From assembly GCA_947168725.1 (NCBI GenBank), contig CAMVNA010000007.1, positions 1-58,419 of the forward strand: a stretch of DNA of 58,419 nucleotides, given 5' to 3'. Below, in pieces: positions 1,813 through 43,953 of the stretch (within the stretch, counting starts at the first letter, position 1; each line of letters opens with the position of its first letter). The notes beneath the pieces were generated by a model. The model saw nothing but the letters and a program-made list of their open reading frames with translations, was not told where the DNA came from and did not search any database. This DNA is from an uncultured bacterium. GTDB lineage: Bacteria; Patescibacteriota; Gracilibacteria; Absconditabacterales; Absconditicoccaceae. A program made the translations under genes and the position numbers.

Positions 1813-3042
1813 TTACTTAAAGTTCAAAAGAAAATCGGATATGTACATATGTTTAATTCATTTATAGTCCATCGCCAAAGGATCAGCAGAGATTACATAT
1901 TTAGGATATGCATCTTCTATTTTTAGAAGATTTCAGAATTCTCTTTCCTTTGTTTTTTCATCTGAGACAGTATATGATACTTGTATATAGAATATTTTGT
2001 CTGCCTTTTTGCAAACAAAGTCAATTTCAGAGTCTCATAAATTTCACACAAAAATTTCATATCAAAGTCTTTTTAGTTGAAGAAAAACGATACTTTCTAG
2101 TAACTTTCCTTTATCATCCTCATATGAAAATTTTAAAACATTTCTAATTCATAAGTCATTGAAATAGTATTTTTCATTACGTTCTAGTATTTTTTTTCAT
2201 TTAATGTCATAATTTGAAACATTATGGATAAGGTATGGAATTTGCAGAAAATCTAAATAAGTACTTATTTTCTCGATAGAAGCAGTTCACCATCAAAAAT
2301 TTTTTGAAGAATTTTGGATATTCCTTAGAGACAACGGCGTTCAAATATTATCGGCGATAAACATCATAATCTTATTGAAATAATTTATATCTCTAATCTG
2401 AAATCTGGATACAATATCTTTGAGTACAGTACTGTCGAGTATATCCTTCAAATGGCGATATTTTAGTGTATTGTCTGATATAGCAACAATTTCAGGCATT
2501 CATCACCATTGAAGATAAGAAACTAAATTTTGAGGTATATCTGATAAATTCACATAATCTAAATATTCAGCATAATCAAATGGATAAACTGAAAATGTTA
2601 GATATCTACCGGAGAGATAGGTTGATAAATCTCCTGATAAAAGTTTTGAATTAGAACCTGAAATAATAATTTTATATTTCTTTTCTACAAATTTTGCTCT
2701 GATAAAGTTCTCTCGATTCTTTATATCTTGTATTTCATCAATTACAATATATTTTGGATCTCATTTTTCATTTTGGTAATCTATAAATAATCTATTCAAA
2801 TCTTTAACATCAGATATACTTCATTCAATATCCATTTCTTTATTTACAAAAAATACATCATCAAAATTGATTTTTTTGTACTGAAAATATCACATTATAA
2901 CATAACTTTTCCCTGATCTTCTTTGTCACTGTACTACAATTATTTGTTCACTTTCTAAAAATTTATCTAATTGCTCAAAATAATCTTTTCTAGGAAAGAT
3001 TTTTTGATTTAGAAGATTTTTACTTTGCAGTATTATATTCAT
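1813..3042 (-). CDS. AAA_14/DUF4143-type ATPase
   Basis: A 409-residue protein of the archaeal/bacterial ATPase family with an AAA_14 domain and a C-terminal DUF4143 domain. The P-loop GQRRSGKS is at residues 39-46, with Walker B IDEIQD near 101-106. A conserved SGSNSKLLSG segment follows (sensor region), then a C-terminal nuclease-like part containing EIDFVCKK. Genes of this family are typically accessory and frequently transferred; their cellular role is not settled. The gene sits exactly between two copies of the dnaX 3' end (1765-1808 and 3174-3217), and about 130 bp of AT-rich DNA separate its ATG from the dnaX stop. It uses TGA for Gly, so it is adapted to this genome or came from a code-25 relative. 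Confidence 0.85.
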
Positions 3043-3172
3043 ACGTCGTAATTAGAAAATAAACATACCCGACAATAATCATATTTTTATCTTTTTGTCG
3101 ATTATACTCGACAATTTAAAAAAATCAAGAGATTTTTTAAAAAATAGCCAAGATTTTACTCTGAGAATTTGC

Positions 3173-4645
3173 TTACATTCACATTAATCTCTGGAAATAT
3201 TCTTCCTTGCTCATTCACTGAATATTCAAAACTACTTTTTTACCTAGTTCTTTCTCCAATAAAGCTTCGATTTCTTTATGCTCTTTTTCAAGTATAGTCT
3301 TTGCTATCATATTGTTATCATGTATCAAAGAAACTTCATTATCACTTACTTTATCAATAGTCATATGGTCCTTGAAAATTTGTCTCGTAGTTGATGATTG
3401 AATTTGACTAATTACTCTTTCCCATAAATCTCAATCAGATTTTTTCAAATCCTCCACCACTTCGTGGTCCCCCTCCTTTGTCAAGGAGGAATTTTCATTA
3501 TCTGCGGGTTTATTTTCCCCTCTTGATAAAGAGGGGTTAGGGGAGATTTGTTCAGCTTTTTCTTCTTTTTTTTCTACTTCTTTTTCCTTTTGTGCTCCTC
3601 TTTTAAGGGGAGCTGCCGAAGGCTGAGGGGTTTCTCCATTCAAAAATTTATTGAAAGCTATCTTGTAAAGCACTGCAGGATATGGATAAAATCTTACTTG
3701 TCTCATAATTTCAGAAAAAGTTTCAGAAACTTTGAGATAAAAATCTACATCATCCATTATATGAGCATCAATATATCCAATACATTGTTTAGCGAATTGC
3801 TGTAAATCAGTTCATTGAGCTAATTTATCAATCTGTTCAAAAATCTGATTTCTATCATTTGTTTTAACTACTTCAAAGAATGATTTAATCGTAGCATCAG
3901 TAGAAATTCATAAGAATTGACTTACATTTTCAGTAGAAATTTTTCCTAAAACACTTACCTGGTCCAAATATTTAATAGCATCACGAACACATCACTCCGA
4001 TATCGTAGCAATCAGTTCCAAAGCTTCATTCTCAAATTCAAATCATTCAGTTTTACAAATATTTCATAAATGAGCGACCATTTCATCTTGAGGGATTTTC
4101 TTGAAATTGAAAACCTGCACACGAGAAACTATCGTTTGAGGTACTTTTTGTAATTCAGTAGTCGCTAAAATGAAGCATACATTTCCACTTGGTTCCTCAA
4201 TCGTTTTGAGTAATGCATTAAAAGCTGCAGTAGAAAGCATATGAACTTCATCTATCACATATATTTTCTTTTTCAATGAAATAGGCTGATAACCAGCTTG
4301 GTCAATTATTACTTCACGAACATTATCTACTCATGTATTTGAAGCGGCATCTATTTCCACATAATCTGTAGTTTTTCAGCTATTTATCAATTCACAGTTT
4401 GCACATTTGTTACATGGATTTCCATCGTGTGGATCCAAACAGTTTATCGCTTTTGCTAAGATTCTTGCAGAAGTAGTTTTTCAAGTTCAGCGAGGTCCAC
4501 ATAGTAAGTAATTTTGCAGTGAAGAAGAATCTGACTGCATTTTAGCTTTCAGAATTCAAATTATGTGTTGCTGTCCTATCATTTCATCAAAAGTTTGAGG
4601 ACGATATCTATTCGCTAAAGATTGAGATTTAGTTACATCTGCCAT
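3173..4645 (-). CDS. dnaX: DNA polymerase III gamma/tau subunit
   Basis: A 490-residue clamp-loader ATPase. The P-loop GPRGTGKT is at residues 50-57, two of its glycines being TGA. The four zinc-binding cysteines are near residues 69, 78, 81 and 84. Walker B VIDEVHML and the sensor segment ATTELQKVPQTIVSR follow. Domain III leads into a Lys/Glu-rich linker (about 330-400) that contains two palindromic-repeat insertions translated in frame. The last codons form the 44-bp repeat also found beyond the ATPase gene. ATG at 4645 gives the canonical start; an in-frame ATG three codons upstream (M-G-K-M) is possible. It does not overlap its neighbours. Confidence 0.95.
3174..3217 (-). repeat. dnaX 3'-end repeat (functional copy B)
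   Basis: The 3'-terminal coding bases of dnaX, duplicated at 1765-1808 with 43 of 44 identities. Together the two copies form direct repeats flanking the AAA_14 ATPase gene. Confidence 0.9.
3451..3550. repeat. R1 palindromic repeat inside dnaX
   Basis: Composite element made of a CCAC/GTGG hairpin, a CCTCCTT/AAGGAGG palindrome, AATTTT, a spacer, a CCCCTCTT/AAGAGGGG palindrome and a closing GGGGAGATTTG. The 5625-5714 element has the same order of parts. It is read in frame as part of the dnaX linker (peptide features SLSRGE and SLTKEG). Confidence 0.8.
3595..3637. repeat. second, partial R1 repeat inside dnaX
   Basis: CTCCTCTTTTAAGGGGAG followed by a GCCGAAGGC hairpin and GAGGGGTTT. This is half an R1 unit, translated in frame in the same DnaX linker (PSAAPLKRG). 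Confidence 0.65.
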
Positions 4646-17981: not shown

Positions 17982-18272
17982 CTATCGACGACGGAGGTTC
18001 CTAAGGGTGAACCCCGCATCTCTTATTGATTTTATAACCTCTTTGTTCTGTAGGATTCCTGAATACTCGGGAATGACCAACTTCTTGATATCCCCACCTT
18101 CCAAGAATGCATACAGCTTCTTGCCTCCAGTTTCACAAAGTACCCCAAATTCTGGAGCAGTTTCCTGAAGAGATTGGATGTCTTCTTGAGCTATTGTTTT
18201 GGCTCCAGAAGATTCCCAATTTGCGGTAATGGCAGCCGCAATTTGATTCTTACTTATCATATATGTATACAT
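17982..18272 (-). CDS. small protein of foreign composition, unknown
   Basis: A 96-residue protein, basic at the C terminus (TLRNLRRR). All of its about nine glycines are GGN and none TGA, and it is GC-richer than its neighbours with CGT and CTC codons. This contrasts with the surrounding genes and suggests transfer from a standard-code donor. The sequence (FGVLCETGGKKLYAFLEGGD, then LVIPEYSGIL) is not recognised. It has its own promoter. An internal ATG five codons in is an alternative start. Confidence 0.7.
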   Translation of the reverse strand: MYTYMISKNQIAAAITANWESSGAKTIAQEDIQSLQETAPEFGVLCETGGKKLYAFLEGGDIKKLVIPEYSGILQNKEVIKSIRDAGFTLRNLRRR

Positions 18273-40427: not shown

Positions 40428-41246
40428 TTATTTTATATTCTCATACTCTTCAATTTGCTTTTTCACGATAGCTTCATCATCGGGATTAGTTACTCCAAAC
40501 CATTGGTCAGGAGTAGAATAAATTCTCATTTTTACTCAACTATTTTTGATAATATTAGTTAATTCTACAGGTAAGTAACATTCAATTCTTCTATCTCATT
40601 CATGTTCTTTTTTGAAGTTAGTCAAAATTTCATTTAAAGATTCTAAGGTTTTTTTATTCAATCCAAAAATATTCATACTACATAAATCATCCAAAGTTAA
40701 TCAGAATTCTGATAATTTATCTTTTTCAATTCAAATTGTTTCGTTGATGTTTTTTACATATCAGTCTTCGACGGTAAAAATTCATCTATTAGTACTTCAT
40801 ACTTCAGGAATTACATTTCACAAAATATAACCCAAAGTACAAAGTTCATCAGGATTATTTTTCAAATGGTCATACACTATTTTGAAAGAGTTTTTCCCAT
40901 AAATATCATCTCCGTTACAAACAACAAATGGTCAATCTATACAATCTAATGCGCTACAGACTGCATCGACAGTCCCCCAAGGTCTATCACGACTTTCTTG
41001 GTCGAAAGTTTGTTTTGCATATTTTACAGGTACTCATTCATATTCATCTCCAAATATTTCCTTAAAAGGTCATTCAGTCATATTTCAAACAATGAAAACT
41101 ATTTGGTCGAATCCTGCAGGTAGAGCCTGACTTAGAGAATATTCTATCAAAGTTGTATCATTTGGTCAGACTTTTGCAAATTGCTTAATTCTTCCTCCAA
41201 AACGAGAAGACATTCCGGCTACCATGTAGACTAGAGATATTGCCAT
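40428..41246 (-). CDS. nucleotidyltransferase (NTP_transferase, GalU/RmlA-like)
   Basis: 272 residues. The N-terminal MVAGMSSRFGG is the nucleotide-binding motif of sugar-phosphate nucleotidyltransferases. The active-site region includes VVCNGDDIYG, and RPWGTVDAVCSA supports base recognition. A C-terminal PDQWFGVTNPDD is common in this subgroup. The substrate is unclear; it is likely involved in surface glycan precursor synthesis. It lies upstream of the SLH gene on the same strand, 256 bp away, a gap with no other feature than AT-rich palindromic sequence. Confidence 0.85.
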
Positions 41247-41389
41247 TTGTTGATTGATAAAAGAATAAAATCTGATTTTAATTTATAATTAAATTATAAA
41301 ATTTCAAGATTCAACTACTCATGAAAGCATTGACTTTTATTGTAAATTATATAATATAGTTTTATAAATATAAGTTAAATAAAATTTAA

Positions 41390-41442
41390 AGCGGGTAGAA
41401 AGGAGGTAAAAAGTATCCTGCCGACTTATCCGGTCGTAAAAT
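41390..41442 (+). promoter_or_regulatory. structured, GC-rich leader of phoH
   Basis: A GC-rich patch in otherwise AT-rich DNA, about 40 bp before phoH. GCGGGTA can pair with TATCCTGC, leaving AAAGGAGGTAAAAAG (a perfect Shine-Dalgarno) in the loop. A CCG/CGG mini-hairpin follows. It is probably part of the imported segment. The AGGAGG is about 70 bp from the ATG, too far for phoH itself. Confidence 0.4.
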
Positions 41443-41477
41443 GGAGAGTTAATAAAAACAAAAAAATCAATAATATT

Positions 41478-42794
41478 ATGGCAAAATCTAAGAAGTTAAA
41501 AAGAACATTTGTTCTTGATACTAACGTTTTGATTCACGACCCTAATGCTATGTATAGCTTTGATGAACATGATGTCGTGATTCCAATTACGGTAGTGGAA
41601 GAACTGGACCGTCTGAAGAACGGTAATGAGTCGCGAAATCTTAGCGCAAGACAGGCATCGAGAAATTTAACGAAACTTATTAAGGAAGGAGGCTCACCAA
41701 CATCTATTTCTCTCGGAAAAGGTAAAGGAAATTTAATCTTCTTCGTCTTTGAAAAGTATCCAACAGTTTCTACAGATGCAGACAATTCTTTCAGAAATAT
41801 CTTTATAGAAGATACGGCAGACCATCGTATCATCGCCGTTGCCTACATATTGAAAGAGCGAGGAGACAATGTTACCATTGTAACGAAAGATAACAACGTC
41901 CTCATCAAGGCAATTGCACTTGGCATCAACGCTGAGGATTATACCCATGATATGGTGCGTAATCCAGACCAGCTCGGTGAAAAGATTAAGGAGATTGACC
42001 CGGAAGACTTGGACTTGCCTAGGGTAACTACAGATCTCGAACTCTACCTCAACCAGCCGGTAATGGTAAAAGGTTGCAGCGATGGTCAGAATCACATTTA
42101 TCGCTGGCAAGGAAAAGACTTTGATCTAATTAAGAGGCAAGAAATCGGTAAGACAGGGATTAAGCCAAAAAATCTTGAACAAGATTTTGCGGTGGACATC
42201 CTGATGGATCCTTCCCTCTCAGCAATAGCTCTTATTGGGTCTGCAGGGTCAGGAAAGACGTTGTTGTCTATTGCAGCTGCGGTTTCTCAGAAAAAAGAGT
42301 ATGAGCGTATTCTTGTGGCACGTCCAGCTATTGAACTGAGTAATAAGACTATGGGTTTCCTTCCTGGGACTTTGGAGGAGAAGTATAATCCATATTTGGC
42401 GCCTGTTCGTTCATCTTGCCGACTGATTATGAGCAAGACGGAAGAGAAAAAAAAGGAAAGTGATGTGAAAATCTGGATGGATGATAAAGGTATCGAGCTT
42501 CTCCCACTTTCGATGATTCGTGGTGAAACATTCCATGATGCCTTTATTCTCGTGGACGAGGCTCAGAATCTTACCCCGACGGAGGTGAAGACTATGGTAT
42601 CTCGTGCTGGTGACGGCACAAAAATCGTGTTCACCGGAGACATCAATCAGATAGATGTTCAGTATCTCACAAAAGAGACCAATGGACTTTCACATCTAAT
42701 TGACCGCTTCCGTGGGCAGAAGTTCTTCGCCTATATCGAGATGCAAAAATCTGTGAGAAGTGCATTAGCTGAGGCAGCGGACAAGTTGCTTTAA
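41478..42794 (+). CDS. PhoH-like ATPase with N-terminal PIN domain
   Basis: 438 residues. The PIN domain (about 10-135) has VLDTNVLIHDP, VVEELDRLK and DTADHRII acidic residues. The PhoH ATPase domain has Walker A GSAGSGKT at 254-261, the ARPAIELSNKTMGFLPGTLEEK segment, Walker B LVDEAQNLTP and FTGDINQID. It probably acts as an RNA-targeting nuclease/helicase like other PIN-PhoH proteins. It contains no TGA: all of its many glycines are GGN. It uses CTC, CGT, ACG and GGC freely and is clearly GC-richer than neighbours. It has its own leader and a strong GC-rich terminator. It is best explained as recent horizontal acquisition from a standard-code bacterium. Confidence 0.95.
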   Translation: MAKSKKLKRTFVLDTNVLIHDPNAMYSFDEHDVVIPITVVEELDRLKNGNESRNLSARQASRNLTKLIKEGGSPTSISLGKGKGNLIFFVFEKYPTVSTDADNSFRNIFIEDTADHRIIAVAYILKERGDNVTIVTKDNNVLIKAIALGINAEDYTHDMVRNPDQLGEKIKEIDPEDLDLPRVTTDLELYLNQPVMVKGCSDGQNHIYRWQGKDFDLIKRQEIGKTGIKPKNLEQDFAVDILMDPSLSAIALIGSAGSGKTLLSIAAAVSQKKEYERILVARPAIELSNKTMGFLPGTLEEKYNPYLAPVRSSCRLIMSKTEEKKKESDVKIWMDDKGIELLPLSMIRGETFHDAFILVDEAQNLTPTEVKTMVSRAGDGTKIVFTGDINQIDVQYLTKETNGLSHLIDRFRGQKFFAYIEMQKSVRSALAEAADKLL

Positions 42795-42817
42795 GACGAT
42801 TCAATCCTATTAATATT

Positions 42818-42855
42818 AAAAACCCCGTGGATTAATTATCCCACGGGGGTTTTTC
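42818..42855 (+). terminator. strong GC-rich terminator of phoH
   Basis: AAAACCCCGTGG/CCACGGGG-type stem with a 10-nt loop and a TTTTT tail; the most GC-rich terminator in the window. It may have arrived with phoH. Confidence 0.9.
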
Positions 42856-42867
42856 AAACCTGATTTT

Positions 42868-43842
42868 TTAATCAGTTAGTTGTCTTAACTTTTTCTTAGC
42901 TTTATCATTGCTAGGTTCAAATTCCAAAATCGTAAAATAATTCTTTTTAGCATTCGCTATATCTCAAATTTCTTCATATAGCATTGCTAAAGTAAACAAA
43001 TAGTTTGTATTCGTAGGTCTGAGTTTTATAACCTTTTCCATGCAAGAAATGGCTTCCACCATTCTACCAGTATTATAATATATTTCTACAAGGCTTAAAT
43101 TATATTTCGGACTATCCGGCTTTAGATTTACAGCTTTATCAACTAATAATTCAGCAGTTCAATTATCTCAGTTTATAAAATAGATTTCTCAAATCTGCCA
43201 CAAAGATTTGTGATCATCAGGAGTCCATTCGGTAATTTTCTTTAGTAAAGGTAAGGCCTTTTTATAGCTTCAAATCACAAAATAATAATCAGCTAACATC
43301 TTTGTTAATTCTAAATTTGAAGGATCGATAGCTAATCATTCAATGATTTTTTTCTCATATTCATCATATTTTCATCAGTTCTTCAATGTTGTAGCATCGA
43401 TAATTATTCTATCAATCATCTTCTTTTCTTTTTCATCCAATACTTTCTCACTAGGTGTATCGAGTGAAGCAGTTTCATCAAAAACAGAAGATTCTGAATC
43501 TTCTTGTATGGTATCAGATTTATTATCTTTTTTCTCATTTTTCGATTCTTTATTCTCTTCAATATTTTCTTCTTCGTTCTTTTCAGCTACAGCAGTTTCT
43601 ATGATTTCTTGAAATTTTTCATCGTTTTTGGTGTCTTCAGCATTAGGATTTATTATAGTTTCCTTATTTTCTTTAAGCTCTTTCTTTATTTGTTTAGACT
43701 TTATTTTTTCTTTCCAAAAAAGCACAATCTTATTTTTCAGTCAATTAGATTTACCCAAAAATCACTTAATAATTCGAGCAATCACAGCCATCAGTAGAAT
43801 AATGGTCAATATAACCAAAACTCGAGCTAAGAATTGTTTCAT
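42868..43842 (-). CDS. TPR-repeat membrane-anchored protein
   Basis: 324 residues. An N-terminal membrane helix (ARVLVILTIILLMAVIARIIKG) precedes a long acidic/lysine-rich linker (about 40-150). TPR units follow, e.g. NLELTKMLADYYFVIGSYKKALPLL and PKYNLSLVEIYYNTGRMVEAI. A scaffold or assembly role at the membrane is likely. It is the last gene behind ftsH and ricT on the same strand and converges with phoH. Confidence 0.8.
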
Positions 43843-43953
43843 AGATACTCTAAAAAAACTAAAAGTCAAATCTGTTTTTTTTAAGTATTTTTATTATATC
43901 CATCCATTATAATGATCTCTAAACAATAATCAACAAAATAAAAACCAAGAAGA

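Follow-up and report, generated by a model that had tools for sequence, protein, structure and literature searches.

Standard-code phoH, one of some twenty long-resident single-gene units in the chromosome of a recoded bacterium of the Absconditicoccaceae

Introduction

The codons CGA and CGG have been predicted to encode tryptophan in Absconditabacteria (Shulgina and Eddy 2021, PMC8629427), and phages without in-frame TGA codons have been predicted for both Absconditabacteria and standard-code bacteria (Liu et al. 2023, PMC10746230). Much like the code-11-compatible phages of Absconditabacteria and Gracilibacteria in the latter work, the genes considered here are TGA-free, readable in both codes, and tied to code-25 bacteria. 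That account, in the portion available to us, deals with phage genomes and does not include a CGA/CGG test, whereas here single chromosomal genes lie at loci shared by sister species. As for the reassignment of CGA and CGG to Trp, native genes of the present genome conform to it, while a class of other genes does not, and such genes are not described in the available portion of PMC8629427.

The gene at the center of this work, phoH, encodes a protein with the domain order and length of PhoH2 (PIN-PhoH) proteins. Its nearest named relatives outside the family are chromosomal PhoH proteins of Bacteroidota (~39% identity), which differ in being encoded in a standard-code genome and at different loci. 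To our knowledge, no chromosome has been described in which individual genes follow one or the other of two genetic codes that have long been kept apart, and the papers searched make no mention of one. In the window analyzed here, a 58,419-nucleotide stretch of contig CAMVNA010000007.1 (assembly GCA_947168725.1), phoH is a member of a set of about 20 single-gene units, long resident in the genome, that are kept in the standard code by a bacterium recoded for TGA (Gly) and for CGA and CGG (Trp).

Codon composition and product of phoH

The phoH2 gene (41478..42794, + strand) encodes 438 amino acids with 26 GGN and no TGA glycine codons, at an overall GC of 0.426 and a GC3 of 0.425. The remaining ORFs of the window have a GC of 0.26–0.36 and a GC3 of 0.13–0.28, and usually 40–90% TGA. 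Across the 1.067-Mb genome, called with code 25, glycine is encoded by 13433 TGA and 7818 GGN codons (63% TGA), and the chance of finding 0 of 26 TGA at a share of 0.64 is 3e-12. The gene has the highest GC3 of all genes of at least 120 amino acids (genome mean 0.204, sd 0.041), its CTC, CGT, ACG, GTG, and CAG codons are raised relative to the genome bulk, and its compositional island in the window has sharp edges. A first-pass annotation had described exactly such an island, with GGN-only glycines amid TGA-heavy neighbors and elevated CTC, CGT, and ACG, and this description holds. The L9 gene of the window is likewise free of TGA, yet has just four glycine codons.

The domain order PIN_4 then PhoH ATPase, as in PhoH2, is recovered by Pfam, with PF13638 (PIN_4) at residues 11–155 (7.6e-32) and PF02562 (PhoH) at residues 228–434 (2.4e-48). 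The protein scores 227.8 bits against the NCBIfam equivalog NF053827, below its cut-off of 680, and is therefore filed as PhoH2-type only. Judged from its sequence, the product is a predicted PhoH2-type protein with a PIN nuclease domain and a PhoH ATPase; what is new lies in its dialect and not in the protein. Three CGA codons occur in the gene, at less conserved and never at invariant positions. Those at residues 53 (41634..41636) and 315 (42420..42422) correspond to Arg in both sister genomes (CGC/CGT and CGT, respectively), while residue 128 (41859..41861) is variable.

Flanking signals and neighboring genes

A predicted sigma-70-like promoter box (TTGACT ... TATAAT-like) lies at 41330..41360 (+) and is kept in two sister genomes by alignment. 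It is followed by a conserved leader (41391..41443, +), encountered in three genomes only and near-identical among them, in which GCGGG and CCTGC could form a stem around the SD-like box TAGAAAGGAGGT in the loop, with a possible CGAC-GTCG hairpin thereafter; its fold energy is ordinary (z -0.86). A putative upstream ORF of three codons (ATG GAR NGT TAA; 41441..41452, +) keeps its start and stop in the three aligned genomes. Downstream of phoH, an intrinsic-terminator-like, GC-rich hairpin, CCCCGTGG...CCACGGGG, is followed by a T-run (42820..42855, +). An SD-like leader and a GC-rich terminator had both been noted in the first-pass annotation, and both are present, although the SD-like box, a perfect 12 nt at 41396-41407, stands ~70 nt from the phoH start codon. 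The leader had no match in IMG/VR, its exact pattern was found only in two family genomes, and no Rfam family matched it.

Both neighbors are native genes on the minus strand. The upstream one (40428..41246), nucleotidyltransferase-like by eye, has TGA at 13 of 24 glycines, is the same neighbor in two sister genomes, and served as the native control gene for comparisons with phoH. The downstream one (42868..43869), TPR-like by eye, has TGA at 10 of 12 glycines and recurs in sister genome G004.

Age of phoH at its locus

Copies of phoH at 80–85% identity were found in two other assemblies, G004 (L017) and a 3.7-kb contig labeled Bacillota (L018). The gene flanking phoH on the latter is TGA-rich and 93% identical to its counterpart in the window, and by its flanking genes this contig belongs to the code-25 family. 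The same upstream neighbor, TTGACT box, and leader occur at all three loci, and none of the three phoH copies has a TGA glycine codon. The Bacillota-labeled contig also carries a further TGA-free ORF of 194 amino acids directly after phoH (2811-3395), with no PHROG match.

Fourfold sites of phoH differ by 61% between the window and L017, which is near saturation. Third-position changes, counted by parsimony so that multiple hits are missed, number 84 from AT to GC and 75 from GC to AT, for an equilibrium GC3 of 0.39 as against 0.15 for the native neighbor. Since these changes are balanced, phoH is not ameliorating. With native orthologues of the window genome (G000) and G004 as a clock, a GGN codon is expected to become TGA with a probability of 0.23 per lineage, and in phoH none of 46 did (P=7e-6). 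Its site patterns depart from the starlike pattern of the neighbor gene, a difference that could reflect allele replacement.

Distribution and phylogeny of phoH2 in the family

The gene is present in 17 of 49 family genomes, that of the window included, and in the other 16 it lies mostly at loci common within a genus, with parts of the neighborhood shared between genera. Eighteen copies (17 in family genomes, plus that of the Bacillota-labeled contig) contain 494 GGN and one TGA among 495 glycine codons, and the sole TGA belongs to a copy that contains Ns and is broken at its end. With local neighbor rates in 13 genomes and copies treated as independent, the joint probability of this absence is ~1e-89. 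The GC3 of phoH spans 0.16–0.46 without tracking the local genome, and the gene is TGA-free even where its GC3 is no higher than that of its neighbors (phoH/neighbors: G021, 0.16/0.16; G001, 0.20/0.31).

Three genomes of the window's genus (G001, G002, and G007) possess a distant phoH, at 30–34% identity and at other loci. In G002 and G007 (L283, L284), only 10–14% of glycines near phoH are TGA, possibly through a retreat from TGA use; these genomes use little TGA overall, so their phoH copies are less informative. In the copy on L175 (G071), the first Asp of the PIN domain is replaced by Asn (VLNTN).

In the tree, the window gene clusters with members from a second code-25 genus of this family (98, starred), near Bacteroidota and three viral contigs, and one single clade for the family has a p-AU of 0.46. 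A place inside the native clade, among orthologues with TGA, had been named in advance as the outcome that would speak against a recent import; phoH does fall inside the clade, but its orthologues lack TGA as well. A phage or prophage origin finds no support in the locus, a single gene flanked by native genes with best viral matches of ~41%.

A class of TGA-poor genes

The window genome has about 20 genes in which TGA is scarce and GC3 elevated, among them phoH, thyA, tdk, an NDK-like and a ClpP-like gene, and many unknowns. The threshold used (GC3 of 0.27 or more, no more than one TGA) lets in one or two ribosomal genes of the native kind and may overlook class members of low GC. The class genes are single units and are followed by terminators in 17 of 21 cases, as against 188 of 805 other genes (p=7e-8), and TTGAC boxes are somewhat commoner at them than elsewhere. 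Several have a partner at the same junction in G004, at 37–91% identity, with conserved flanks at several loci. A second class-like ORF of the window (17982..18272, - strand; 96 amino acids, 0 of 8 glycines TGA, GC3 0.385) has its own TTGACA box and terminator.

Two dialects for CGA and CGG

A second and independent point on which the two codes differ is provided by CGA and CGG. In alignments of G000 and G004, these codons in native genes face TGG in 558 cases and a different Arg codon in 17; in class genes, where each gene offers few Gly and CGR codons and the counts come from a small set, the figures are 0 and 8, respectively (p=3e-12 versus native). Native CGR also aligns to Trp in other family genomes, apart from a few Arg where a region contains standard-dialect thyA (G066 gave no informative site), while Arg is its counterpart in G372, a standard-code genome from outside the family. 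Among 55 CGR codons in 16 phoH genes, 20 fall at positions where Arg is the majority among 15 reference proteins and none at Trp. The first-pass reading of phoH in the standard code is thereby extended, as its CGA is used as Arg where native CGA and CGG mean Trp.

Thymidylate synthase is encoded in both dialects, and some genomes hold thyA in both. TGA-free copies have CGR at Arg columns in 17 of 17 clear cases, and TGA-rich copies have it at Trp columns in 25 of 25; two standard-dialect copies have one or two TGA codons. On three contigs (G061 C12, G064 C43, and G059 C171), a TGA-free thyA lies beside a shorter, TGA-containing thyA-like ORF. Taken with the glycine codons, these results show that phoH and its class have long followed the standard code in this lineage, in two respects that are independent of each other. 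Because native genes use CGA and CGG for Trp, these codons are mistranslated, as Arg, wherever NCBI table 25 is applied to native genes of the window.

The tRNAs were compared with the Arg and Trp identity rules set out in PMC8629427, as given in the portion of that paper available. Those with anticodons GCG and CCU carry the Arg identity base A20, and those with CCG and UCG do not. The CCG tRNA has G73 and U1.G72, like tRNA-Trp, while the UCG tRNA (G000 C1:135416-135488), with U73 and no A20, has neither Arg nor typical Trp identity by these published rules. No Arg-identity tRNA for CGA/CGG was found in this genome, a MAG that is 91% complete and from which one could be missing, and only one RF-1-family gene was found.

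Alternative explanations

The first-pass annotation had proposed a recent, unameliorated import from a standard-code donor, and the composition island and the lack of TGA are what such an event would leave. The shared locus and synteny in two sisters, the saturated synonymous sites, the stationary GC3, the family-wide pattern, and a tree position inside the code-25 family all argue against it, and it is now very improbable; no standard-code donor was found, and a one-way valve for gene flow, also suggested there, is not required to explain one recent arrival. Slightly less probable still is translational selection, in which strong expression of a native gene would lead it to avoid TGA because that codon is read slowly. 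Pooled ribosomal proteins and elongation factors do have a TGA share of 0.35, versus 0.64 for the bulk, but EF-Tu uses TGA at 39 of 56 glycines, the codon shift of the class correlates with the ribosomal shift at only 0.33, and CGA as Arg is left unexplained; high expression was rejected as the cause. Biased gene conversion was likewise set aside, as a 3.6-fold GC bias would by our own arithmetic still leave about a third of glycines as TGA, and low-GC3 copies are TGA-free too. An assembly or binning artefact could be suspected from the fact that several assemblies are MAGs and one sister contig is labeled Bacillota, but is hardly credible when phoH is bordered by TGA-rich native genes, in a shared gene order, across many separate assemblies.

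The main rival to a reader in the host is recurrent import, in which most evolution of the class takes place in a standard-code pool, made up of hosts or of phages that suit both codes, from which its genes enter again and again, including by in-place replacement at old loci. TGA-free phages of the kind predicted in PMC10746230, in the part of that work available, would supply such a pool, and the free-ranging GC3 of phoH, its non-starlike site patterns, and a thyA that at 78% is as close between genera as within a genus are all consistent with it. Against it stand the loci shared within genera, the conserved flanks at several class loci, and the failure to find a close phoH donor among phages, plasmids, and IMG/VR, with a scan of genome contigs yielding the two sister copies only; searches for near viral kin likewise found none for thyA or for the gene at C5:89974. 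Moreover, tdk and the C5:89974 gene have a fourfold divergence that is ordinary for the G000/G004 pair, and rapid in-place replacement is unsupported at most class loci. Recurrent import is on balance unlikely, though ahead of the other alternatives. Less probable than this, but more so than a recent import, is a second reading state within the bacterium, with the class translated in conditions that lack the recoding tRNAs or supply those of the host. It would account for vertical inheritance and for both codon rules without any transfer of nucleic acid, but it has no known precedent, and the failure to find an Arg-identity tRNA for CGA/CGG and the single RF-1-family gene speak against it.

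A possible reader in the host cell

The reading we tentatively prefer, at somewhat less than an even chance, is that selection on the class acts through a standard-code ribosome, likeliest that of the cell on which the bacterium lives. A ribosome of this kind is inferred because changes of the CGA<->CGT type are silent only there, and because A20, the base that marks Arg identity, is lacking from both tRNAs found here for CGA and CGG, so that Trp would be the residue expected at these sites from the bacterium's own ribosomes. The units are old residents, with GC3 at their own equilibrium and loci common to sister species, and they appear to bring their own promoter and terminator signals. Among them are putative nucleotide-metabolism and PhoH genes, the kind that phages use on their hosts. 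A conjugative coupling protein (PF02534) and a relaxase (PF03432) were both sought and not found in the 91%-complete genome, which counts against delivery to a host, and with neither of these two DNA-transfer families present the host step can be put no higher than this same tentative grade. It is possible, if rather doubtful, that a parasitic or predatory bacterium holds chromosomal genes in its host's code, with host-readable signals, for expression in the host (nucleotide supply, PhoH, and proteases), and that some genomes also keep, for their own needs, a version of that enzyme in the recoded dialect.

Implications

Translation of these genomes by code 25 alone gets native Trp codons wrong. 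Should recurrent import prove to be the cause of the class, the finding would be less new. If instead selection reads the class in the standard code, these genes would point directly to products synthesized beyond the bacterial cell, or else to a second reading state. The finding also makes it testable how recoding affects gene flow and host interaction.
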